From Thraustochytrium sp. TN22 (taxonomy: Eukaryota; Sar; Bigyra; Thraustochytrida; Thraustochytriidae), in NCBI GenBank assembly GCA_013306675.1, contig JABLUY010000050.1, positions 99,545-163,544 on the forward strand: a DNA stretch of 64,000 nt. Reading direction: 5' to 3'. A program made the translations under genes and the position numbers. The notes under the pieces are model-generated. The model searched no databases and was not told the origin of the DNA. It saw nothing but the letters and a program-made list of their open reading frames with translations. Shown here piece by piece: positions 20,572 through 35,177 of this stretch (position 1 is its first letter; each line of letters opens with the position of its first letter).

Positions 20572-21149
20572 GCCTTGGCAGACAGACGATTGATTCATCT
20601 TCTGCTGCTCGCGCTGAGATGATCAGCGACATGAGCGAACCAGGCCGCACTGGCACTCCACGCGCAGCGCCACCCTTGACTCGCGGCGTCTCTTCTCTTG
20701 TGAGCCTGTCACACAATTGATTCGGGGCGCATCAGTGTCATCTCGCACAAGTCAGAGGCCGCTCCGAGCCGCCATTTCTTTCTTTCTTTCTCTCTTTCTA
20801 GCTAGCTAGTAGTTAGGCCGCGCACGTCACATGTGGCGAGAATGCGCGCCAATCGTGCACGTGCATGTGCACGCGCTGCTCGCCGGCGCCGCCGGGCGAA
20901 AGCGGCCGATCCAGCAGATGGGCCCATTTCACCGCACCCTCGACACGTGTGCCCGAGTGCACGCACTCTCGATTCGCTCCCGCGCTCCCACAAGATCTCT
21001 CGGCGCTCCGCGCAGTCTGGCCAGACTCCCCGTCGTGCGAACGACTCGGAGGCACAGGCAGACTCGGACAGCGGCAGACATGCAACGCGGAGGACAAGGC
21101 AGACGAAGGCTGGCGCGGTGGCGCGCGAGCAGGCGCAGCTCTTCAGACC
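20572..21149 (+). promoter_or_regulatory. Spacer upstream of the kinase-RING fusion
   Basis: These 578 bp hold the 3' flank of the LCAT-like gene and the leader of the next one. A tttc run (20775-20798) runs directly into ctagctagctag (about 20798-20810). The gccagtgc word is present on the minus strand at 20647. An in-frame ATG at 20865 exists but the added sequence is not protein-like. Confidence 0.5.
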
Positions 21150-24100
21150 ATGGCCGGCTTGTGGGAGATGGTCGTGTTGAACCTAGTGCTACAGGTGCTC
21201 TGGCTGCTCGTGCGCAGCCAGGTCCCCGCCGAGAACGAGGCGACGGAGGCGAGGGACGCCACAGAGATCGCGGAGCCGGAGGGCGAGGACCCACCGGGGG
21301 GCGAGCGAGAGCGCGAGCGAGAGCGCGAGACCAAGCTGGCCGTCTCGCAGCCTTGGGTGCTCCACGTCTTCGCGTTTTCGGGGCTCGCGTACGCCTTGTG
21401 GAGCAAGGACGGCACCTTCAGCAACATCTGCTTGGTGGCGGGCACAATCGCAGCTCTGCGCGGTCCAGGTCGCCGCGCCCTCGCGCGTGTCATCATGCAC
21501 CCGAAGCTCGCTCGAGTCGAGGCCGCGGTGCGGCTCGGCGCCAATGTCAACGCGCGCGACGCACTTGGGCGGACAGCGCTCATGTCTGCCTGCAAGGACG
21601 GCCGTGACGACGCTGTGCTCCGACTTCTCGGCCAGGGCGCCGAAAGCAACATTCTGGACCATGAGGGTCGCACGGCGCTCATGTACGCCATTGACGGACG
21701 CGCCGACGTCGCGCGAACGCTCGCGTGTGTGCGTGTGCTCTGGCTCGCAGGAGCACGCGCCGACCTCTTCGGCGCTCAGAGAACGGCCCCTGTGGAGCGA
21801 GCCCGGCGCCGAGGTCCCGAAGCTGTCTTTCAGCTGGTGGAATTTCTGGTCACGAGCGATCTGGTTGACTTCCTCCTCTCAGAGCCGTGGGCAGAGCGCG
21901 CGATCGTCCTCGCTCTCTTCGACCAGGGCTGCACCAGCGTGGAGGACTTTGCTGCCCTCGAGTTCGCAACCTTGGCGCGGCTCCAGGCGGACGTCTTTCC
22001 GCGTGTGGGTGGTGAATACGTCCACGTGAGCGTTTTATGGGAGCGCGCGCAGCGGCATCGCGCAGGGAATCTCGCCGCTCGTGTTCTTCGGCACTCCAAC
22101 ACCCTCCACGCTCTCACCAAGACGTTTGCGAGGCTGGTGAAAAGCTCGGCCCCCGAGGAGGTGGTGTACTCGGTCCTTCGGTCTGTTCTTGCGGAGAGCT
22201 GCCCATTCGCGAGCATGCCCACTTTGCGGGAATTGCTCCAGCAGGCACGGCAACGCGAAGCCAGGCTCGCTGAGCTCCAGGACGAAATCGTTGCCGAGCT
22301 GGCGGGTTCATCGTCGCTTACTACGGTGGAACGAGTGCAGGAGCTCGTAGCGCAACGGAATGACGCCCGTGCGCATCTCGTCACCACGCTCCGAGCAATC
22401 AGCGAGCATCAGGACCCTCCCCTGAGCGCTCTTCGCGCGGCATTGCCGCAGTGGGTAGAGTCCCCCAAAGGTCTTCGCATCGCGGCAAGGAGCCATCCGG
22501 TACGCGTGGAAGCGGATGGCCTCACTTTAGACGCTTGCAAGGATGCGGTCCAGGAAGCGCTGCGCCTGGTCGAGGCTTGCGTGCAAATGCAAGACAAAGT
22601 CAACCACGAGTGTGCAGCGCTGAGCGACGTGGCCTCACAGGTGTGTGCTAGTTTTCTGGCAAACGACGAGCGCACGTGCACACATGTGGGCCCAGGCCTC
22701 AATCTTGCGCTGGCCTCTATCGAGAACGCCCTCCGAGAGAAGCGAGCGTCTTTGGAGAGATCTATGATCCACGGAGGTACAATTGTAGAGGCGCTCAAGC
22801 GCCGCGACGCTGCCGTAGCGTTTGCCGCGGCACGCGTCACCGCGTACAGCGATCTCGTCATTGGGCCGGGAGCTGCTGAGCTCGAAGAGGACATCGCCGA
22901 GGCCTCTCGTAAGTTCGGGCACTACTCGAACGGAGGTCGCCCACTCAGTACAGAGCTGCTCGAGCGACTCTCGCGGGAGACTTTGCCCAGCATGCGCCAG
23001 CGGAAGGAGACGCTCGATCTTCAGTTGCGCCACGCTAGCGAAGACGCACACAGAGCCGGCGCGAACCCGAACCAGGATCCTCGCGTGAAAAGGCTCCTGC
23101 GTGAGCTCGGAACGATCAAGCTGCAGCAGTGCCAGCGCACTGTCAGAAAGCTACGCAAAGAAGCACTTGCGGCAGCGGACGCACACTACCCGGAGCTGCT
23201 CCACGATCCAGCGTGGCGCCGCAGCATCGGGCTGGCCCAGGATGCGGCCCTTGAAGCGAGCAAGCTGGGCCTCTGGCTCGACGGCGCCAGCGCGGAGGAC
23301 TACGAGACCCTTGACGAGCTCTCTGCAGGTGGTGGCAAGGTGGTGCGCAAAGTGCGCAGCCGAAACGGCGAGGTTTGCGTCCTGAAAAAGTTCCATCTCG
23401 CCAATCCAGCGCAGCAGCGAAGCTTTTACTATCAAGCTGCAGCCCTTTCGCGGGTGGACTCTGGCCACCTCGTTCGTATCGACGGCATTTTCGAGGAGGC
23501 GAACTGGGGCTGCCTGCTGATGCCTTTTTACGCGGGCGGGGACCTGAGCGCGTGGATCGAGAGCAACCCGCACGCCCCTGTCGAAACGCGCAAGCGCATC
23601 GCCATGGGCATCTTTTCCGGTGTGCATGATCTGCACAGGCTCGGCCACGTGCATTGCGATCTCAAACCGAGCAACGTCCTGCTCACGAAGAGCCTGTTCC
23701 CCGTTATTGGGGACTTTGATGGTGTGCGCGACCTCAACACTACGCTCACGGCTCCGGTGCTGGCCACCATGCGGTACGCCGCGCCGGAGCTCATGGGTGC
23801 AGCGACCGCAGACGCTGCCAACATAGGTCCGCAGGTGGACATGTTTGCCCTGGGCGTCCTCCTCGGGGAGCTCTTTCCTCAACCGCCCGCCGCTGTCGCG
23901 GAACTCGTCGCTCAGCTCAAATCTCGCGAGCCATCTGCTCGACCCTCGGCTTACGCTGTGTTGAGTGGCCAAGCGTTCCAGACTGAGACCGTCCCGACTT
24001 CGCTATGCGCAGTTTGCATCGACAGCAAGCCCACTGCGGCCGGCATAGCATGTGGCGATGGGCACTTTATCTGCGCCATCTGCCTCAGCCACACAGTTGG

Positions 24101-24749
24101 CATGGCCGTAGACCCTGAGGTGAACAGCGTTCAGGTCACGCGAGATGGCGGGCTGCTGTGCCTAAGCCCGGATTGTGACCATGTCATCCCTGGAGCGCAA
24201 GTCGCCCGGCACGTGACGGACGAGGCTCACGAAGCAATGATGCATGCCGTGCGAGAGCACATGGAGCGCAATGCAGCCGCGCAGCTCGAGGCTGAGGTCC
24301 AGCGCCGTGTTCAAGCCGCCCTTCAGGCGAACCATCGGGACAGGTCTGTGCAACGTCACCTTGACAAGATCCGAGACAGCATCCTCTGCGTCTCCTGTCC
24401 TCGATGCGCTCAGGTCTTTGTTGACTTCGATGGCTGCTGCGCGCTCCAGTGCATCAATCCTCTGTGCCGCCAGTATTTTTGCGCCTGGTGCCTCGAAACT
24501 GCCGGGCCAGCGAGCGACGCTGCGCACCGCCACGTAGCCAACTGTACACATAAGCCCCCCGGGGCTGACCGCTTCTACGGCACTCAAGCTGAAGTGCATC
24601 AGAACTGGGCCCGGATCCGCGCGGACCGCCTTCGCGCGTACGTGCGCCAGGAGTTGCCAGCGGGAGACCTTCGAGCGCGAGTGTACGATGCCTTGCGGCC
24701 TCTTCTCACGAACGACATCGTTGGCGTGGGCTTTCAGCTTCCACAATAA
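21150..24749 (+). CDS. Ankyrin - protein kinase - RING/RBR-like E3 ligase fusion
   Basis: The ATG at 21150 (accATGg) gives 1,199 aa. Two hydrophobic stretches (about 5-24 and 68-105) suggest membrane attachment. Two or three ankyrin repeats follow at about 112-205 and a helical, partly coiled-coil region at 330-700. A kinase domain spans about 716-940: VLKKF supplies the catalytic Lys, HCDLKPSNVLL the catalytic loop (HRD changed to HCD), DFD replaces DFG, and APELM is conserved, so the Lys and both Asp are kept. A RING1-like cluster begins near 953 (CAVCIDS, GHFICAIC, CLSPDC). A RING2-like cluster lies at about 1080-1135 (CPRC, GCCALQC, CRQYFCAWC), in which the Cys after Gly matches the thioester Cys of RBR ligases. 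The protein likely couples phosphorylation with ubiquitin transfer; substrates are unknown. Confidence 0.85.
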   Translation: MAGLWEMVVLNLVLQVLWLLVRSQVPAENEATEARDATEIAEPEGEDPPGGERERERERETKLAVSQPWVLHVFAFSGLAYALWSKDGTFSNICLVAGTIAALRGPGRRALARVIMHPKLARVEAAVRLGANVNARDALGRTALMSACKDGRDDAVLRLLGQGAESNILDHEGRTALMYAIDGRADVARTLACVRVLWLAGARADLFGAQRTAPVERARRRGPEAVFQLVEFLVTSDLVDFLLSEPWAERAIVLALFDQGCTSVEDFAALEFATLARLQADVFPRVGGEYVHVSVLWERAQRHRAGNLAARVLRHSNTLHALTKTFARLVKSSAPEEVVYSVLRSVLAESCPFASMPTLRELLQQARQREARLAELQDEIVAELAGSSSLTTVERVQELVAQRNDARAHLVTTLRAISEHQDPPLSALRAALPQWVESPKGLRIAARSHPVRVEADGLTLDACKDAVQEALRLVEACVQMQDKVNHECAALSDVASQVCASFLANDERTCTHVGPGLNLALASIENALREKRASLERSMIHGGTIVEALKRRDAAVAFAAARVTAYSDLVIGPGAAELEEDIAEASRKFGHYSNGGRPLSTELLERLSRETLPSMRQRKETLDLQLRHASEDAHRAGANPNQDPRVKRLLRELGTIKLQQCQRTVRKLRKEALAAADAHYPELLHDPAWRRSIGLAQDAALEASKLGLWLDGASAEDYETLDELSAGGGKVVRKVRSRNGEVCVLKKFHLANPAQQRSFYYQAAALSRVDSGHLVRIDGIFEEANWGCLLMPFYAGGDLSAWIESNPHAPVETRKRIAMGIFSGVHDLHRLGHVHCDLKPSNVLLTKSLFPVIGDFDGVRDLNTTLTAPVLATMRYAAPELMGAATADAANIGPQVDMFALGVLLGELFPQPPAAVAELVAQLKSREPSARPSAYAVLSGQAFQTETVPTSLCAVCIDSKPTAAGIACGDGHFICAICLSHTVGMAVDPEVNSVQVTRDGGLLCLSPDCDHVIPGAQVARHVTDEAHEAMMHAVREHMERNAAAQLEAEVQRRVQAALQANHRDRSVQRHLDKIRDSILCVSCPRCAQVFVDFDGCCALQCINPLCRQYFCAWCLETAGPASDAAHRHVANCTHKPPGADRFYGTQAEVHQNWARIRADRLRAYVRQELPAGDLRARVYDALRPLLTNDIVGVGFQLPQ

Positions 24750-25645: not shown

Positions 25646-28600
25646 ATGCGGCAGGATGGACAGCCTGAGGGCATCTGCGAAAATGTGGTGCGACTAGCCG
25701 GCGAGCAGCCCGACCGCCGGCAGTTCACTTGGCTGGATAACGACGGCAAGGAGGCCGCCTCGCTGACTCGCAGAGAGCTCGCCTCCAAGGCTCTCGGCAT
25801 CGCCCATGCCATGGAGCATGCCTGGGGCATCAAGCGCGGGGACCTGGTCCTGTTGGTGTTTGCACCGGGGCTCGACTTCATCACGGCGATGCTCGCATGC
25901 CTGCTTGGCGGCTTCATCGCGGTGCCAATTTACCCACCGGACCCCAGCAACCCGAAACCAGGGCTCGCAATGCTGACCAATGTGGTCCACGCGATGCAGC
26001 TAGCGCACGTGCTTTCACACGCCAGCTTCCTGCGAGATCGGCGCTTTCTGATTGGCAAAAGGAGGTTTCCAGCGAACCTCAAGTGGCACGACGTGGGCAA
26101 GGCAACGCCAGCCTTGCGTTTAGCGTTGCCGTACGCTTCCGCACCCGAAGAGCTCGCCTTTGTGCAATTTTCCAGCGGCAGCACGGGCGACCCCAAGGGC
26201 GTCTGCGTCACACGTGGCAACCTCGACGCCAATCTGGCCAGCATCTGCACGGCCGTGAGCATTAGCGAGGCCTCGCGAGGGGTGAGCTGGGTGCCGTTCT
26301 ATCACGACATGGGTCTCGTGGCCTGCACGCTAAGCGTGATCACCAAGGGTGCTCAGGCGGTGCAGTTCTCGCCGGTAGGCTTCCTCAAGAACCCAGCGCT
26401 TTGGCTCTCCACCATCTCCAAGTACCGCGCGACGATGACCTGCGGGCCGAGCTTTGCGTTTGAACTTGCAGCGCGCAAGATTCCACCAGGGAAGCGCACG
26501 GCGCTGGATCTCACTTCTTGCAAACGATACTCGCCTGGCGCCGAACCCGTGCGCATGGAGACGTTGCGCCGCTTCGTGGACGCCTTCGCGGATCAGGGCG
26601 TGCGCATGGAGTACATGGACCCGACTTACGGCCTGGCGGAGAACGTCCTGCTCCTGTCTACGCATCAGCCACCCAAGGGACCGCGCGTCGTGCGCTTACG
26701 CGCGGGGCTCAAGCTTTCGCCGGGTACTTGCATCGAGGAGGCGCAGGACTCCGGCGGCCTTGAGCTCATCGGCAATGGCCAGCCAGGCCCGGGAACCAGC
26801 ATCCGCATCGTGCACCCCGATACGCGCATATTGCTTGAGGAGGGCCACGTTGGCGAGATTTGGGCCGCGGGTCCGAGCAAGACCTGCGCCTACTATGGCA
26901 GACCGGAGCTTTCGGCGGCGCAGCTCAACGCCGAGCTCGCCCCTCCCGATGGCCAGACCTACCTGCGTACCGGCGACCTGGGCTTCATGCACCAAGGCGA
27001 CATCTTCGTTTGCGGTCGTCTCAAAGACATGTTCATCGTACGCGGACGCAACATCTTCCCGCAGGATGTGGAGGCCAGCGTCGACGCCTGCAGCTCGGCC
27101 ATTCGCCCCGGTTGCTGCGCCGCCTTTTGCCTGAAGCAGTCCGAGGACATCGTCGTCGTTGCCGAGGTTCGCGACGCCAAGATCCAAGACGCCAGTCGCC
27201 TCGCAGACGCCGTGCGTGCTGTCATCGTCACCGAGCACGGTTTCAGGCCGTTTGCCGTCGTGCTCATCAAGCCGCGCACCATCCCCAAGACCACAAGCGG
27301 CAAAATTCGTCGCGCCACCGCGCGGAACGCTTTCGAGCAAAACAAGCTCGCTGTCGTGGCGCGAAGCGGTGACGCCGCCCCTCGTATGGCGCCAGCTGCG
27401 GCGTCTGCGGTCGACCTGGCACCGCTCTGGGGCACCCTGGATGCCGCTCAGCAGATGGATCTCTACACGGACCCGACGCAGGTGAGGCGCATCATCTCCG
27501 AGCTGCACCTGGACGAGATGCCCGGTCTCGAGGACCTGTGCGCTGCGCACACTTCAAAGCCAATCAGCCTGGCGCCCATGCTGTCGAGCCTGCGCGGCGC
27601 CTTGCAGGTGCAGACTGTCCTCGCAGGCTTTGTCGCGGGCTTGTTGCCCCCAGCTGCTCAAATGCCCACGGCCAACGCGTTGCGAGGGCCACTCACTTTC
27701 CTTCTCCTCGTGGCCGCCTTCGCGGAGCGCATGCGCGAGCCAGAAACCTTTGCTGCGGCCATGCCGCATCTCGTAGAGCGCAACATGCGCAATCACCGGG
27801 GAATGGGCCACGAGACCTGGTTTTACACGGTCAAGCGCGGCCTGCTCGTCTTGGCGGCTCGGGTCGAACTACAGATCATCGCCGTACAGGGGTCCAAGGT
27901 CGAGCGCGTTGTCCAGGACCTGCGCGGCCTACGCGTCAATATCCTCGCAGCAGTGGCTGCCGAGCTCCTAGACGCGCCCCCAAGGGATGACCTTTCGCCG
28001 TCGGCCGTGCTTGGCGCCGCGCTCAGCGAGGTCTTGATGGGTCGCGCGGTGCGCGACGTACCCTTCGATCTTTTTGTACAAGCATACGCGGCGTGGAACT
28101 TCGCTTTCATCGAGAAAGTCAGGCCCAGACAGAACGACCTCGCCAATCGCGCCATACAGGCGGTCCTCTTCGTGCCAGACATCATCAAGCCATCCTCGCG
28201 ACAGGCGTTTTTGCAGGATCGCATGGCCACACTGCTGCTTGTCGCTGCCGCGGACCCAGTCCACGTGTTTGCTGCTGCCTCACCGTCACTGGCGGAGCCC
28301 GCCGCAAATGGTTCCTTTTCATACAACATCGAACCCCTTCTCGCGCAGATCATGCCTCTTCTCGGGGCCCCTCAGGCAAGTGGCATCGCCAAGGACCTGA
28401 TCCAGCGCTATGGCCCGGAAGAGAGGCGCGCCACGACGACCTCGCTCGTCGCCCGCTGCGACCACGTGCTCACCTCGCCGCTCGACAGAGGCGTCCGGAT
28501 GCAGCCGGACCTTCTCTTGCACACGTGGAAGGACCTGGGCCGTGAGGTCGCTGCCGATATTGTCGGTGGCACGCCCGAGGAGCGCCTCGACTGGCTGCTG

Positions 28601-31024
28601 CGCCGCGTCCGCGAGGTGCTTCAGCTGCCTGCGCTTGAGCCGGACGTCGACCTCTTCGAGGCCGGCATGAGCTCCCTGGCCATGGTGGAGGTCGTCACGC
28701 TTGTTGAGACGCTGGTCCAGACGGGGGAAGTTGTGGAGCCGGACCTGATTGCGACACATCGCAACGTGCGGGCGCTCGCCGCGGCCGTTGAAGCGAAACG
28801 CGGGGAGGCAGCGGGGCGGCATGAGGAGTTGTTCCGCCGTTTGGACAGCCCGGCGCTGCCTGTGGTGCTGGCGGGCTCACTGCAGTTCTTCGGCGTCTGG
28901 GTCATCTTTTTTGAGATGACGGCCGCGATTCTGCCGGCCTATCAGTACGGCTACTGGCTGCACTTCGAGAGCGACCTGGGCGAGCCGTGGGTCTTCTACC
29001 ACGTTACGAACTCCGTCACGGTGTTCGGCCTTCTCGTGCCCTTGGTGATTCCCATTTGGATCGTGAGCTTCACGGCGTTGCTGGTATTGACCAAGTGGCT
29101 TGTCATCGGCCGATGCACGCCTTGCGAGATTGCGATCAACTCGCTGCCGTATCTGCGTTGGTGGCTCTTCGACCGCCTCTCGCACATGTGGGAGCTCACT
29201 TGCGGCCGGGTCCTCCTCGATACGCCACTGCTCAACCTCGTGTACAGGCTCCTGGGCGGTGAAGTGCCCCTCAGCGCTCGCCTCGAGGTCTTCCTCCGCG
29301 ACCTGGATTTCGTCCACCTGGGTGCTGGAGCCCGCATCCAGGGCGAGGTCACGTGTCGAGCCTTCGACGCCAAGGCCGGCACCCTACGATTCCGCCGCGT
29401 TGAAATCGGGGCACACAGCCACCTGCGCATGGGCTCCGTGGTGCTGCCGGGTGCAGTCGTCCGCCGCAACACGCAGGTCGCGCCGCTCCGCGTCGTACAC
29501 GACGGCGAGAACACTCCGCACGAGGTTGAACAGATTGGCGCGGGAGCAGGCGGCGAGAACGCAGCGCACGAGAGCGAACACGATGGCCCTGCTCACGTAC
29601 CACTCACCTTGACGAGTCTGATCGCCAAGCTTGCCTTCATGGCACTCTTTCTGCTCGCCTTTTCGAGCGCCGGTGCTGTTCACCAGCTCCTCTGGAGCGC
29701 GTGTGGCGGTCCTCGTTGGAGCTTCCGCTACGCCGACCTCGTCTTCTGGACCTCGGCGTATCTGGTGACCTCGTGCACCATGGCGCTCGCCGTGATTCCT
29801 CTCAAGTGGATCCTTCTCGGAAAGTTGCGCCCGGGTCTGGCGCGGTCAGACGTTGCGGCTGCGTCCTGCATGTGGGCGGCGGACTTCGCCTTTGGCATCG
29901 CGTGGACTACCGTTGCTCAGCTCTGCGACCAAAGCCAAGTCGCCATGTGGTACGCGCGCGCCATGGGGCTCAGGGCTGGGCCGGGGGCCATGGCGTCGAC
30001 CTTGGAGTGGCTGCGACCTTCCAACGCGGACCTCGTCAAGCTCGGCGCCGGCGCCTTTGTCAGCTACATCCTCGTCGAGCCTGAACTGGACGGAGCTCGC
30101 GATATGATCGTGCTCGGTACGGGCTGTGAGGCCGCTCTTTTGTCGGTGCTTTGCCGCGGGGCCATCATGAGCGACGGCTCGTCCCTCGGTACGCTCTCCA
30201 CTCTGGGCCGGGACGAAGTGCTTCCGAGCGCGCATCGCAAATTCCGCGGTGCAACCTTCTCGCTCGCTGACCACAGGCACCTCGGGACTGCCTGGACTGC
30301 GTGGGGTGCACGCGGCGAGATCTTCACGCTCACATCGAGGCTTGTCGTGCTCGTGTTGGTCGTGGCCGCCCTTATTCCACCCTATGAGTTTGCGCGCCTG
30401 GTGCTCTTTGATGTCAAGGGTTTGGACCGCAATCTAGCCATCCTTTTGCTGGCGGTGAGCTTCTGGCTGGCGCTGCTCTCGCTCGCCGCGGCGCAGAAGC
30501 TCATCGCTCTCGCGATCCTGGGAGCCTCGCACGATCTGCACGCGCCACCGTGCAGCACGAGCCTGTATGCCACGTACAACGTGATGTGCCACTGGCTGCA
30601 AGGCCTGCTGCAACCGGTTTTGTACGGGACCCCCATGTACAATCAGCTGCTCCGCCTCATGGGCGCCCGCATCGCATCTGGGGCCATCGTCTTGCCTGCG
30701 TGGATCAAAGAGCACCAGCTGCTGACGGTGGGGCGAGGTGCAATTGTGGACCACGCCGCGCTCACGGGCCACGAGTTCGCGGACGGGGCATTGCGGATGA
30801 TGCCGACGCGCGTGGGCGACTATACGTTGCTTCGTCCCGGCGCCCTCTGCATCTGTGGCAGCAATGTGCCGGCTGGATTCGTCGTGCAGTCTCATTCTCT
30901 CGCGCCGAGGTTCACAAAACAGTCGCCTTGTGCTGTCGAGCAAGGGTCTCGCGTGGACTGCGGTCACGGTGAAGGTCTGGTTGATGTCAAAGTTGCCCGG
31001 CGCTTTGCCGCCGTGCCTGTCTGA
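25646..31024 (+). CDS. FAAL-ACP megasynthase with Pls-type six-TM / three-hexapeptide terminal region
   Basis: The first in-frame ATG is 25646 (1,792 aa); the frame also has a GTG three codons earlier. Residues 1-565 are an adenylate-forming domain of the fatty-acyl-AMP ligase type: FSSGSTGDPKG near 174-184, FYHDMGLVACTL, YGLAEN, and the C-terminal GKIRR with Lys553. A helical region of unknown role spans about 570-985. A carrier domain follows at about 990-1060 with FEAGMSSLAM, phosphopantetheine Ser1010. The rest alternates TM pairs and left-handed beta-helix domains: TM about 1071-1155, hexapeptide 1219-1285, TM 1322-1394, degenerate hexapeptide 1455-1530, TM 1563-1627, hexapeptide 1669-1755. 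This A-T-(2TM-C)x3 plan is that of epsilon-polylysine synthetase-like NRPSs. Likely role: activate a fatty acid, load it on the ACP, and condense it with an amine at a membrane. The product is unknown. Confidence 0.88.
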   Translation: MRQDGQPEGICENVVRLAGEQPDRRQFTWLDNDGKEAASLTRRELASKALGIAHAMEHAWGIKRGDLVLLVFAPGLDFITAMLACLLGGFIAVPIYPPDPSNPKPGLAMLTNVVHAMQLAHVLSHASFLRDRRFLIGKRRFPANLKWHDVGKATPALRLALPYASAPEELAFVQFSSGSTGDPKGVCVTRGNLDANLASICTAVSISEASRGVSWVPFYHDMGLVACTLSVITKGAQAVQFSPVGFLKNPALWLSTISKYRATMTCGPSFAFELAARKIPPGKRTALDLTSCKRYSPGAEPVRMETLRRFVDAFADQGVRMEYMDPTYGLAENVLLLSTHQPPKGPRVVRLRAGLKLSPGTCIEEAQDSGGLELIGNGQPGPGTSIRIVHPDTRILLEEGHVGEIWAAGPSKTCAYYGRPELSAAQLNAELAPPDGQTYLRTGDLGFMHQGDIFVCGRLKDMFIVRGRNIFPQDVEASVDACSSAIRPGCCAAFCLKQSEDIVVVAEVRDAKIQDASRLADAVRAVIVTEHGFRPFAVVLIKPRTIPKTTSGKIRRATARNAFEQNKLAVVARSGDAAPRMAPAAASAVDLAPLWGTLDAAQQMDLYTDPTQVRRIISELHLDEMPGLEDLCAAHTSKPISLAPMLSSLRGALQVQTVLAGFVAGLLPPAAQMPTANALRGPLTFLLLVAAFAERMREPETFAAAMPHLVERNMRNHRGMGHETWFYTVKRGLLVLAARVELQIIAVQGSKVERVVQDLRGLRVNILAAVAAELLDAPPRDDLSPSAVLGAALSEVLMGRAVRDVPFDLFVQAYAAWNFAFIEKVRPRQNDLANRAIQAVLFVPDIIKPSSRQAFLQDRMATLLLVAAADPVHVFAAASPSLAEPAANGSFSYNIEPLLAQIMPLLGAPQASGIAKDLIQRYGPEERRATTTSLVARCDHVLTSPLDRGVRMQPDLLLHTWKDLGREVAADIVGGTPEERLDWLLRRVREVLQLPALEPDVDLFEAGMSSLAMVEVVTLVETLVQTGEVVEPDLIATHRNVRALAAAVEAKRGEAAGRHEELFRRLDSPALPVVLAGSLQFFGVWVIFFEMTAAILPAYQYGYWLHFESDLGEPWVFYHVTNSVTVFGLLVPLVIPIWIVSFTALLVLTKWLVIGRCTPCEIAINSLPYLRWWLFDRLSHMWELTCGRVLLDTPLLNLVYRLLGGEVPLSARLEVFLRDLDFVHLGAGARIQGEVTCRAFDAKAGTLRFRRVEIGAHSHLRMGSVVLPGAVVRRNTQVAPLRVVHDGENTPHEVEQIGAGAGGENAAHESEHDGPAHVPLTLTSLIAKLAFMALFLLAFSSAGAVHQLLWSACGGPRWSFRYADLVFWTSAYLVTSCTMALAVIPLKWILLGKLRPGLARSDVAAASCMWAADFAFGIAWTTVAQLCDQSQVAMWYARAMGLRAGPGAMASTLEWLRPSNADLVKLGAGAFVSYILVEPELDGARDMIVLGTGCEAALLSVLCRGAIMSDGSSLGTLSTLGRDEVLPSAHRKFRGATFSLADHRHLGTAWTAWGARGEIFTLTSRLVVLVLVVAALIPPYEFARLVLFDVKGLDRNLAILLLAVSFWLALLSLAAAQKLIALAILGASHDLHAPPCSTSLYATYNVMCHWLQGLLQPVLYGTPMYNQLLRLMGARIASGAIVLPAWIKEHQLLTVGRGAIVDHAALTGHEFADGALRMMPTRVGDYTLLRPGALCICGSNVPAGFVVQSHSLAPRFTKQSPCAVEQGSRVDCGHGEGLVDVKVARRFAAVPV

Positions 31025-32726
31025 CGACTGCTTGGTGTTAAAATTAATTAAAAACGAGTCTGACGAGATCACTGAGTGGCCACGGCACTGTAGTGGTGGG
31101 CGAGTTCGCTGCCTCACTGCCTGGATCGTGCTTCACGGTGCAGCGTTCGACGCCAACTCACGCGCTCGTGCATCCTAACTGAATAGCGAACGAGTGACGG
31201 CGGATGTTCCGCATCGCCGCCATCACAACAAACTTGAGCATCATTCCCAGTCTCTGTAGGGCGAGCCGCTGTCCTTATCCTTGTGCTGAGCTGTTCATGC
31301 ATGATCATGTGCAGAAGTGGGTTGTGCGGCTGCTGATCCTCGCTGGTCTCAATCCGCCGTACGAGTACGAGTGGTTACCAGCTGAGGGAGGACCCGGGCC
31401 ACCTCGGCGGCGTACCTAACTGTAAGTTACTAACAGTGAGTCATCCGATCAGATGAGTCAGTGAGTCACTGGTGATGGTCGTCGGGTGGGGGTACCACCA
31501 CCCTCCTGATTCTACCGCCTCGAGCTGGGCACCGGCCCACCTCCACCACAGGCAGACACAGACGCGCGCGGCGCCTCGCGCGCTCACTCGGGGCGGGCGG
31601 AGGGGCCCAAGGGCCAGTGCCGACGCTCGCTCGTAGCTGCGGCGCATCCCGATGTTGTTGATCGCGTTTTGATTTGTGGCTGTACCGCCCTGGCACGACG
31701 ACTACTACCATACCACCTCAACCTGGTACCGGTACCTGGTACTCCAAGCCCTGCTACACAGCAGCCAAGTACCCGGAACTACTGGTGCAACGTGGAGCAG
31801 ATTCGTATCTTGTTCAAGTTCAATTTGTGCGCGCAGTTCAAGCAAGCTGTCTCCGCTCAGGCTGTGCGCTGCCAGTGTGCGGCGCTGCGCAGCTGCGGCT
31901 GACTGCCAGTACGAGCGCGGCGAGGCCCAGCCGGATGTCAGAGTATTGTTCGAGAGAACCTGCGGCCACCTCCTTTCAAATTCGAAATTGCAGCGAGATT
32001 TGCCTCGCGCTTGCCGTGCGCTCGGCGCGCTCGCCTCGCGCGGGCTCCCGGCCCGCCAGCCGCAGCGAGCGAGCTAGCTAGCTAGCTAGCTCAGTCGCCG
32101 CTCGCCAGCTGCCTCACGGCCCGCGCCGAGCCGGGCCGGACCTGCTGGCCGCCACGGCTCACCAGGGCTCCAGGCCATAAGTTCGCGCTCGACAAGTTGG
32201 CGCTCGAGCACGAGCTCGGCGCCCCTCCCGCGTCCTCCACGCTTCCGGGCGAGCGAGCGAGGCTCCTCCGCGCGGCAGCAGGCGTCTCTCTGCGAGCGCG
32301 GCGCCCTCGCCTCGTCTGAGCGCAGCGCGCAGCCCTGCGCAGCGCAAGCTCGAGTCGAGTCGAAATCGATTCAATTCGAATCGGATCGAATCGACCGCGA
32401 GGGAGAGCGCTCCGCGGCGGCGGCGGCGCCCTGGCCGCCCGAGCCGCCTCGCCCCGGCCGCCCCCGCCCCGCCGCCCCGCCCCGCCCCCCCCCCCGCGCG
32501 CCCAGGCCGCCCGCCCGGCCCGGCCCGCCTCGCGCGGCGCCAGCCCCGGCTCGGCGTCCGCGCGGTGGCAGGCAGGCGCAGGCGGCGCAGGCGCAGGCGG
32601 CGCGGCGCGGGCGCGCGCGGGCGGCAGCGCGCAGGCGGCGCGCGGCGCAGGCAGGCAGACAGGCAGGCAGGCGGGCGGGCAGGCGGGCGGGCAGGCGCGC
32701 AGGCGCGCAGGGCGCGCGGCGGCGCG
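31025..32726. other. Long spacer between FAAL synthase and Kir channel; 5' region of the channel gene
   Basis: No supported gene lies in these 1.7 kb. They hold ggtacc/ggtac clusters (31490, 31723-31742), gccagtgc-like words (31613, 31870), a perfect 22-bp CTAG palindrome (32071-32092), a tcgaa-type repeat (about 32350-32395), and a gcagg/gggc period-4 run (32640-32715) ending just before the channel ATG. Minus-strand frames of hundreds of codons here come from these repeats. Confidence 0.5.
32071..32092. repeat. Perfect 22-bp palindrome of CTAG units
   Basis: The sequence from 32071 to 32092 (gagctagctag, then its mirror) is identical to its reverse complement. It belongs to the recurrent CTAG tracts found between genes in this window. 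Confidence 0.9.
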
Positions 32727-35177
32727 ATGGGGCTCGCGGCGGGCGAGGCGGCGGCGGCGGCGCGCGACGTGGAGCTGCGCAGCCTGTCGGCGGCGGCGGC
32801 GGCCATGGCGGCCGCGAGCGAGGCGGGCGGCGGGCCGGGGGCGTCGATGCGGTCGGCGGCGTCCGGGTCGTCGGCGGGCCGCGCGCGGAGGCTGCTGCGG
32901 CGGGCGAGCTCGCAGCAGACGGAGCAGCAGCACCACCAGCGCGAGGGGTCCAGCTCGGGGCCGGCGCCAGCGCGGGACTTCATCGACTCGGAGCCCGTCT
33001 TCGCGGAGGATGACGACGAGTCCAGCTCGGACGAGAGCTCCGGCTTCGAGAGCGAGTACTCGGCGGCGTACCAGGAGCTGGCCAACGCGGGCTGCTTGAC
33101 GCGCTTCTTCTACCGGCTGCAGAATGGCATGCTGCGCTTCCGCTGGAACATCCGGCACGCGGCGCGCTCGCGCGGCCGCCGGGGCCGCCTGTTGGACCGC
33201 GACGGCGCCTTCCACCAGTGCTCCGGCAGGCTGCACATCAACCAGGTGGCGACGGGCCGCACGGCCGCGGAGATCATCGCGTTGTACAGCGACGACTGGT
33301 TCCACGTGATGCTCAGTTTCGCGACCTGGCAGCTCATGCTCATCATGCTCTTCATCTACACGCTCAACCTGCTCGTCTTCGCCGGGCTGTACATGATTGT
33401 GGACCGGCCCGAGCAGTCGTGCGGCCTCACGGCGGAGGCGCGCGAGTCCGTGTCCTTCCAGACAGCGTTTTCCTTCAGCCTCATCACCTCGAGCACCATC
33501 GGCTATGGTTTCCCGTCTTCCTCGGACCCCTTCTTCCACGACTGCATCTCGCTCGTCGTCGTGGTGTACCTTCAGGTCATCCTCTCGCTCGCCATCAACG
33601 CCCTCGTCGTCGGTCTCGTGCTGCAGCGCCTGGGCCGCGCGGACAGCCGCTCCCACCAGGTCGTCTTCAGCAACAAGGCCTGCATCCGCTGCATCCACGG
33701 GCACTTTTACTTTATGTTCCAGGTCTACGACCTCGACCGCCGCCACCCGGTCGTCGAGGCGCACGTGCGCTGCTACGCGGTCTTCCACGAGACGGACGGC
33801 GACGAGATCGTGCACTTCCAGACGCGCTACATGCGCCTGCAGAACCCCAACGACGAGCTCGGCGGCGTGCTCTTCCTTAGTGTCCCCTGCACGGTCGTGC
33901 ACTGCATCGACCAGTGGAGCCCGCTCATGCCGCCCGAGCTCGCGCGCTCGCCCTGGGAGAACCAGAACGACGACTTCGTGCACAACTCGCAGAACCGCTA
34001 CGTGTTCCCGGGCCTCGTGCTGCGCGAGGCCGATTCGGAGACCGGCAACCGCGACTCCACCTCGTGCCCGGTCTGCGGCGAGACCTTTCCGACGGACCAG
34101 CACCTCCTGCGCCACATCCGCTATCAGCGCTGGGAGGAAAAGGCCAACGGCCTCGAGCCTGTGCTCGATCGCAGGGTCATGAACAAGCTCTTCCCGCCCG
34201 AGGAAGATGACGAAGACTTCGAGGAGGACCAGTACGACGACTTTCATCCGCATGGTTACCGCCAGAACGCGCTCGAGTCCGTCTTCGACCACGACACCTC
34301 CACCACCACCACCAGTAATAATGATAACGGCCACGCAGATGGTCGTCCGGAGTCCAATACACCCGCGTCCTCGCGCTCGCGTGCGCAGTCCGAGAGCCGG
34401 CGCCGTGCCTCCAGCGGCCGTCGCGCCTCCAATATCTCGCGCCGTAAACGCGTTGTGCACCGCGGCAAGCAAGCGCGCCGCAGCCGCCTGCTCAAGTTCT
34501 ACGCGGACCTCACAATCCCCATCGGCCACCAGGACATCGACATGAACCTGCTGCAGACCGAGTTTGCGCTCATCCCAGACCGCGACGACGGGCCCGGCAC
34601 TGCGCGCGCGCCCAACAGCACCGACATCTTCGCCATGTTTGAGGAGATGGAGCGCACCGCGAACAACAGTCGCTCTTTCAAGGCCACACGCAGCCTCATG
34701 GCCGGCATGCGGGGCGGCAGCAGCCGCAGCGACTCCAATCGCATCCCGACGCAGCAGACCGCCAGCGAGCCGCCATCGATCGGCCCGATCCGCATCAACA
34801 CCGTGCCCTCGCCCGCTGAAGAGGACGCCACCACCGCCGAGCCCCCGGCGGCCTTGCCAACGCCGCTAGCGCTCAGCGACCGCATCTTCCGCCAAAAGGG
34901 CAAGTCTGTCGAGTCCTTTCGCAAATCCATTGAGGAGCACGTCGAGACCAGCGGCATTGAGATCATCGTCCTCGTTGAGGGTATCGAAGCGCGCTCCTCC
35001 AATACCTTCCAGGCTCGCCACTCCTACACCTCCGAAAACATCGAGTTCAACAAGTTCTTCACGCCATGCATGCGCGTGTCTCCTCAGGGCTACGCATCCG
35101 TCAACCTCAACTCCTTTCACCAGACCATTCCCGTCCCCAGTCACGTCGATGAGATTATCGGCATGTCTCATACATGA
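32727..35177 (+). CDS. Inward-rectifier (Kir-type) K+ channel with a ~320-aa insertion carrying a C2H2 finger
   Basis: The ATG at 32727 gives 816 aa; the frame upstream reaches only a GTG. After a disordered acidic N-terminus, TM1 lies at about 191-225, the pore helix and filter STIGYG at 256-261 (TIGYG from Thr257), and TM2 at about 272-300. It is followed by the PIP2-site-like stretch RADSRSHQVVFSNKACI and the immunoglobulin-like cytoplasmic domain. The usual Kir order is kept to CTVVHCIDQWSPL (about 405). It then breaks for about 320 residues and resumes at IEIIVLVEGIEARS (about 741) through ARHSYT and the final FHQTIPVP. The insertion holds one C2H2 finger (CPVCGETF...HLLRH, first Cys 447), acidic and Ser/Arg-rich parts. 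The channel should pass K+ inward across a membrane; the insertion probably adds a regulatory or docking site. Confidence 0.9.
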   Translation: MGLAAGEAAAAARDVELRSLSAAAAAMAAASEAGGGPGASMRSAASGSSAGRARRLLRRASSQQTEQQHHQREGSSSGPAPARDFIDSEPVFAEDDDESSSDESSGFESEYSAAYQELANAGCLTRFFYRLQNGMLRFRWNIRHAARSRGRRGRLLDRDGAFHQCSGRLHINQVATGRTAAEIIALYSDDWFHVMLSFATWQLMLIMLFIYTLNLLVFAGLYMIVDRPEQSCGLTAEARESVSFQTAFSFSLITSSTIGYGFPSSSDPFFHDCISLVVVVYLQVILSLAINALVVGLVLQRLGRADSRSHQVVFSNKACIRCIHGHFYFMFQVYDLDRRHPVVEAHVRCYAVFHETDGDEIVHFQTRYMRLQNPNDELGGVLFLSVPCTVVHCIDQWSPLMPPELARSPWENQNDDFVHNSQNRYVFPGLVLREADSETGNRDSTSCPVCGETFPTDQHLLRHIRYQRWEEKANGLEPVLDRRVMNKLFPPEEDDEDFEEDQYDDFHPHGYRQNALESVFDHDTSTTTTSNNDNGHADGRPESNTPASSRSRAQSESRRRASSGRRASNISRRKRVVHRGKQARRSRLLKFYADLTIPIGHQDIDMNLLQTEFALIPDRDDGPGTARAPNSTDIFAMFEEMERTANNSRSFKATRSLMAGMRGGSSRSDSNRIPTQQTASEPPSIGPIRINTVPSPAEEDATTAEPPAALPTPLALSDRIFRQKGKSVESFRKSIEEHVETSGIEIIVLVEGIEARSSNTFQARHSYTSENIEFNKFFTPCMRVSPQGYASVNLNSFHQTIPVPSHVDEIIGMSHT

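Follow-up and report, generated by a model that had tools for sequence, protein, structure and literature searches.

A fatty-acyl-AMP ligase–carrier protein fusion with a polylysine-synthetase-type membrane tail and its paralogs in Thraustochytrium sp. TN22

The window, that is, the whole stretch of 64,000 nucleotides of Thraustochytrium sp. TN22 DNA analysed here, encodes a protein in which a fatty-acyl-AMP ligase (FAAL), a region that we call M and an acyl carrier protein (ACP) precede a membrane tail of the type found in ε-polylysine synthetase (Pls) and PosA. From its sequence, this protein is probably a membrane acyl-conjugating enzyme. More tentatively, and with somewhat less than even confidence, we propose a eukaryotic CoA-independent acyl-conjugation system spanning labyrinthulid-type protists, diatoms and land plants: a FAAL–ACP head would supply a membrane acyltransferase tail derived from Pls. 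In this genome the system may take the form of a combinatorial family of 19 loci, the heads, M domains and tails of which have recombined, diversifying donor–acceptor pairs. The 19 loci and the occurrence in other eukaryotes, including land plants, go beyond the initial annotation of the window gene; the plant FAAL–HemY–catalase part is already in print.

Domain architecture of the window protein

The gene needs no intron, and its frame stays open for 17 codons further 5′ of the chosen start codon. Its features, all on the forward strand, are as follows.

25646..31024, +, window gene, single exon, FAAL-M-ACP-(2TM-hexapeptide)x3, 1792 aa (open frame, no intron needed)
25697..26896, +, FAAL AMP-binding subdomain, residues 18-417 (Pfam PF00501, FAAL models, PDB FAALs)
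26642..26851, +, A5 to A6/7 stretch with the FAAL-specific insertion, 70 residues, 333-402 (motif spacing; collinear with 7r7f)
27026..27355, +, FAAL C-terminal subdomain (PF23024)
27302-27304, +, codon of A10 Lys553, within the FAAL C-terminal subdomain (A10 motif in 17/17 intact paralogs; codon checked)
27368..28579, +, M domain, about 400 aa, matching no known family, probably helical (Pfam null, M profile, fold predictions)
28589..28789, +, acyl carrier protein (PF00550, 2.5e-8)
28673-28675, +, codon of the phosphopantetheine Ser1010 in the ACP (ACP serine conserved; codon checked)
28847..29566, +, tail unit 1, two TM helices and a hexapeptide region (TIGR02353, hydropathy, unit profiles)
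29600..30313, +, tail unit 2 (TIGR02353, hydropathy, unit profiles)
30314..30910, +, tail unit 3 (TIGR02353, hydropathy, unit profiles)
30770..30772, +, codon of His1709 in unit 3, proposed catalytic base (kept in 129/131 tail proteins; codon checked)

Pfam places an AMP-binding domain at residues 18-417 (whole-protein E 1.7e-47), a DIP2/FAAL-type C-terminal subdomain at 461-570 (7.5e-12) and a PP-binding domain at 982-1048 (2.5e-8). Given these E-values and 18 further loci in the same genome, the architecture is not due to chance. The order FAAL–ACP–(2TM-hexapeptide)x3 read by the initial annotation was recovered by Pfam, NCBIfam, hydropathy and unit profiles, and the region of about 400 residues that it placed between FAAL and ACP corresponds to residues 575-978. 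No biosynthetic cluster surrounds the gene: its neighbours are one long frame with ankyrin repeats and a protein kinase domain (20817-24749) and one with inward-rectifier (Kir-type) potassium channel domains (32181-35177).

By the features tested in its sequence (motifs, insertion spacing and tree), the activating domain is a FAAL, as had been claimed. NCBIfam FAAL models score up to 344 bits on the window protein, the best solved relatives of the domain are the FAALs 7r7f and 3kxw, and a comparison of the insertion loop, which the annotation had put forward as a check, found the domain collinear with 7r7f straight through the insertion region. The ANL motifs A3, A7, A8 and A10 are present, and A5 was found by the pattern used in the spacing analysis. 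The A5–A6/7 spacing of 70 residues compares with a median of 70 (range 47-77) in 17 FAAL rows without a tail (some bacterial, some eukaryotic, some unnamed) and 72 (39-75) in 19 of the 20 rows of the window-gene family; the medians were 42 (12-46) in 60 prokaryote Pls A domains and 42.5 (33-84) in eight other A-type rows. The 23 other tail-linked rows from eukaryotes and metagenomes are shorter than typical (median 55, range 50-86).

The tree of activating domains, which has 59 rows after 12 of the initial 71 were left out, contains a branch with 99% SH-aLRT that parts FAALs from A domains. On the FAAL side lie 31 tail-linked FAAL rows, the window protein included, and 19 tail-less FAALs; the other side has nine rows, seven of them A domains and two the acyl ligases from P0007 and P0008. 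Neither the NCBIfam models nor this tree pointed to an amino-acid-activating A domain in the window protein. Because the tail label needs two changes on the tree, the tail-less EukProt protein P0074 adjoins the window group and the plant group is unplaced, the tree does not support a single origin of the FAAL–tail fusion.

Residues 1123-1752 match TIGR02353 (NRPS_term_dom) with an E-value of 2.9e-36 and 125 bits, under the curated cut-off of 423 bits. The earlier identification of the tail as an NRPS terminal domain therefore stands as homology and fails as membership: with a significant E-value and a score far under the cut-off, the tail is a diverged homologue rather than a member at NCBI's threshold, and at such a score its chemistry may have changed. 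Kyte–Doolittle hydropathy predicts helices at 1071-1089 and 1129-1147, at 1320-1338 and 1366-1384, and at 1559-1577 and 1593-1626, the segment 1593-1626 consisting of two overlapping windows, so that the last TM pair is read partly from such windows; the scan is a rough tool, because it also marks stretches outside the tail, in the FAAL (67-85) and in M (860-878). Unit profiles put the repeats at 1068-1307, 1319-1556 and 1557-1755; the window protein is a training row of these profiles, and P0012, P0013 and P0020, which are not, give the same three units. By hydropathy and unit profiles, then, the window protein has the Pls-like pattern of six TM helices in three pairs and three soluble units. 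PMC10522769 presents a model of the PosA tail in which three left-handed beta-helices pack as they do in sugar-nucleotide acyltransferases; it also states that Pls reduced to its A and carrier domains made no polymer.

The histidine of the third unit (His1709 in the window protein) recurs in 129 of the 131 tail proteins; unit 3 was defined here as the most C-terminal unit match, and as many as 23 rows in its profile doubled as test rows. It is present in 20/20 members of the window-gene family, 79/80 prokaryote ORFs, 7/7 of P0002-P0008, 7/7 plant proteins and 16/17 other eukaryote or metagenome proteins. At the aligned place in units 1 and 2, histidine is absent from 16 of the 22 proteins whose units were shown; the other six (P0008, P0014, P0070, P0079, P0081 and P0085) also carry one in unit 1 or 2. 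It is a reasonable inference that the catalytic centre lies in unit 3, and the window tail is homologous to the Pls tail and probably works like it.

The M domain is predicted to be helical at low confidence, and Pfam yielded no relative of it (residues 575-978 in the window protein). A single-sequence fold prediction reached a pLDDT of 41 and a four-sequence prediction a pLDDT of 49 and a pTM of 0.35; Foldseek with the predicted fold against the PDB gave a best E-value of 1.3, so that these predictions yielded no usable assignment. A search with M from the window protein brought 0 of 7990 scored candidates within E ≤ 10; it covered proteins of 0.55-1.75 times 1792 aa sharing words with the query, and as it missed P0009-P0011, which carry M, this null does not imply that M is absent elsewhere. 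A remote M may lie between FAAL and ACP in the EukProt protein P0013: the hhalign score of this region against M is 27.0, compared with at most 20.5 for 40 shuffles and at most 20.7 for 15 control stretches, at an hhalign probability of 4% and an hmmsearch --max E-value of 0.66.

Relatives in other organisms and known systems

Of 7996 candidates scored with a profile of seven short paralogs, 3134 reached E ≤ 1e-5, and the best 120 of the 3134 were examined as relatives. Within these 120, the tail profile found tail units in three metagenome proteins with M (P0009-P0011), two EukProt proteins (P0012, P0013), three proteins of the diatom Seminavis robusta (P0020, P0022, P0025), seven land-plant proteins and twelve further metagenome proteins (P0014-P0019, P0021, P0023, P0024, P0026, P0027 and P0070), which could be prokaryotic. 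TIGR02353 was found in all five proteins tested (P0012, P0013, P0016, P0020 and P0079) at 93-185 bits, none at its cut-off.

The Seminavis proteins share the order FAAL–ACP–tail and match 92-99% of the first short paralog; they differ in having 28% identity and no M by the M profile. Plant proteins with FAAL-like domains between HemY and catalase domains were described by Patil et al. 2021, where their function is given as unknown, and the main text of that paper does not contain the words hexapeptide, transmembrane or acetyltransferase (PMC8460268). Two such proteins, from Glycine soja (P0085) and Actinidia (P0079), resemble the window protein in that tail units follow FAAL and ACP, and P0079 is likewise under the TIGR02353 cut-off, at 185 bits. 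Unlike the window protein, both have, by matches that are weak in part, an N-terminal flavin oxidase-like domain and a catalase-like domain before the last tail unit (the catalase match of P0085 is just below Pfam's cut-off), and the plant proteins have no M by the M profile.

Like Pls and PosA, the window protein has a carrier domain followed by three TM groups and three hexapeptide units, with the third-unit histidine conserved. Unlike them, it has a FAAL in place of the amino-acid A domain, an extra M domain, a tail score of 125 bits against a cut-off of 423, and a tail whose clade does not include the sampled A-linked tails. By two features tested in the sequence, the A domain and the cut-off, it is not a Pls. 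With bacterial FAAL-initiated NRPS and PKS systems it shares a FAAL that loads an ACP, a step that is predicted for the window protein; in the bacterial systems the acyl group is handed to NRPS or PKS modules (PMC11837247), in place of which the window protein has a membrane tail. A eukaryotic FAAL-like domain is also found in DIP2/Cmr2, which in the account of PMC8460268 combines tandem FAAL-like domains with a DMAP1-binding domain; the window protein has neither the tandem repeat nor the DMAP1-binding domain but one FAAL, an ACP and the tail.

The annotation's statement that such tails normally stand behind amino-acid A domains agrees with the prokaryote loci: of 129 confirmed, 80 were kept, and profile scores give 79 of these an amino-acid A domain (the remaining one, L058, is cut), the weakest assignments being L100 (40 bits only) and L049, L050 and L053 (low, at 119-220 bits). 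A FAAL is the better match in none of the 80. Because the scan relied on two short patterns and on ranking by likeness to a bacterial tail, rare bacterial FAAL–tail fusions could be missed. Activating domains and tails were placed in separate trees, as the annotation had suggested, and in the tail tree the 18 FAAL-linked tails form one clade (95%). That tree has 45 rows; outside it are the plant tails, 11 of the 17 intact family members, and P0010, P0016, P0017, P0019, P0021, P0023, P0025 and P0027. Next to the clade (99%) stand the tails of P0007 and P0008, although long branches are flagged and these two may be falsely drawn together. This placement suggests an acyl-type branch of tails that comprises the FAAL-linked clade and P0007/P0008. 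Both are metagenome proteins with a Pls-type tail: P0007 has a non-FAAL acyl ligase, and P0008 an acyl ligase, an ACP and a C-terminal FMN-dependent dehydrogenase. Among the literature matches listed, no publication linked a FAAL to a Pls-type tail.

A family of paralogs with a mosaic history

A TIGR02353 search of the organism's own genome (37.9 Mb in 453 contigs) gave 52 matches, 50 of which fall in 19 gene-sized loci; the other two, on C441 and C199, score 22-23 bits. Seventeen loci are intact, the window gene included; C401a contains masked bases, and an in-frame TAG interrupts C74c. Seven of the intact copies have no M, eight have one and two (C114 and C359) have a tandem pair. It could be supposed that this expansion is degenerate or non-enzymatic, the tails serving as anchors and the proteins being mostly acyl-ACP stores or decaying copies, in line with the sheer number of loci and the TAG in C74c; as all 17 intact copies keep the tested FAAL motifs (A3, A7, A8 and A10), the ACP serine and the unit-3 histidine, we consider this very improbable. 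The TAG-interrupted paralog (L030:5447-9655 and L037:151-2655; C74 in the genome) reads as a pseudogene, a sequencing error or a case of read-through.

The genome carries eukaryotic genes (myosin, tubulin-tyrosine ligase and a Kir-type channel). No common neighbour partner emerged from nine ORFs at 7 of the 18 fetched loci; an AMP-binding acyl ligase frame lies directly 3′ of paralog C99b on the same strand (L025:1428-3911, −). There are three matches to 4′-phosphopantetheinyl transferase (PPTase) in the genome, one within a FAS-like frame. Two long frames were seen at C442:184400-184720 (L017) and C332 (L008): a 4221-aa frame with KS and PPTase, which we take to resemble the thraustochytrid fatty acid synthase, and a 4522-aa NRPS-type frame.

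Heads and tails of the family, compared in trees of the 17 intact copies and P0009-P0011, give conflicting groupings. The FAAL tree joins the window protein with C152, C55, C74a and C116 (100/100), and the tail tree joins it with C99a and C446 (100/99). AU tests rejected all five cross-clades tried: on the FAAL data, window+C99a+C446 (p 9.5e-4) and C74a+C74b+C16a (p 4.7e-121); on the tail data, window+C152+C55+C74a+C116 (p 1.4e-6), window+C152 (p 2.6e-4) and C359+C114 (p 8.5e-56). These p-values are optimistic, because all five groups were picked after the trees had been seen. Pairwise identity, measured along the paralogs in steps of 100 residues, is patchy. C74a and C74b are 45-75% identical in the head and 98-100% over the last 600 residues, where their bases are 97-100% identical; between C11 and C359, identity is 73-87% over the FAAL, falls to 45-64% over M, and rises to 89% near the ACP and 96-100% beyond.

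With conflicting trees and patchy identity, the family looks mosaic, and exchange between paralogs by recombination or gene conversion is the simplest reading. The same pattern could arise as an assembly artefact from the joining of near-identical paralogs, a concern for the near-identical pairs in an assembly of 453 contigs in which the C11 and C421 copies lie near contig ends and the C359 copy is on a short contig. Yet C74a and C74b sit on one contig, and the conflict extends to the window gene, which is at most 76% (head) and 55% (tail) identical to the paralogs compared and so has no known near-identical stretch at which an assembler could switch. We regard the artefact as quite improbable.

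Proposed chemistry and its meaning

In the mechanism that we propose, the FAAL would use ATP to activate a free fatty acid to acyl-AMP and would load the acyl group, without passing through CoA, on the phosphopantetheine of the ACP in the same protein, as its family membership and intact motifs indicate. The acyl-ACP would then dock on the membrane tail, pictured after the published PosA model as a pseudo-trimer of three TM-anchored left-handed beta-helices, where the His1709-type residue of unit 3 may activate an acceptor nucleophile and yield an N- or O-acyl product at the membrane. The window enzyme may join an acyl group to an amine or oligomer, as the initial annotation had predicted, and because the Pls acceptor is an amine, an acyl amide is by analogy the first guess for the product. 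Heads and tails vary among the paralogs, as does the number of M domains (none, one or two); swapping heads and tails would vary donor and acceptor separately.

In a polymer synthase, by contrast, a hydroxy- or amino-fatty acid would be loaded by the FAAL, and the tail would polymerise it to a polyester or polyamide in the way that Pls polymerises lysine. Pls and PosA do make homopolymers (PMC10522769). The flavin oxidase-like and catalase-like domains of the plant relatives could moreover oxidise fatty acids. However, Pfam detected no oxidase domain in the window protein, in three of its paralogs or in the proteins from Seminavis, the window protein has no hydroxylase, and a simple fatty acid lacks a second nucleophile; polymer synthesis is therefore distinctly unlikely.

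Alternatively, the enzyme might be a membrane lipid acyltransferase that passes the ACP-bound acyl group to the hydroxyl of a lysolipid, sterol or glycan rather than to an amine. Acyltransferases with the hexapeptide fold N- or O-acylate their substrates, and the membrane tail is of the hexapeptide type. The FAAL-like DIP2 functions in diacylglycerol metabolism (PMC9342972). Against this, the characterised tails considered (Pls and PosA) form amide bonds, and we rate O-acylation of this kind as rather unlikely.

Acyl transfer from an ACP at a Pls-like membrane tail is a testable mechanism for a group of eukaryotic proteins, and as proposed it also covers the plant proteins described as of unknown function in the text of PMC8460268. 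It indicates that Pls-type tails are not limited to amino acids, and the mosaic family would offer a natural experiment in how donor and acceptor modules can be combined.
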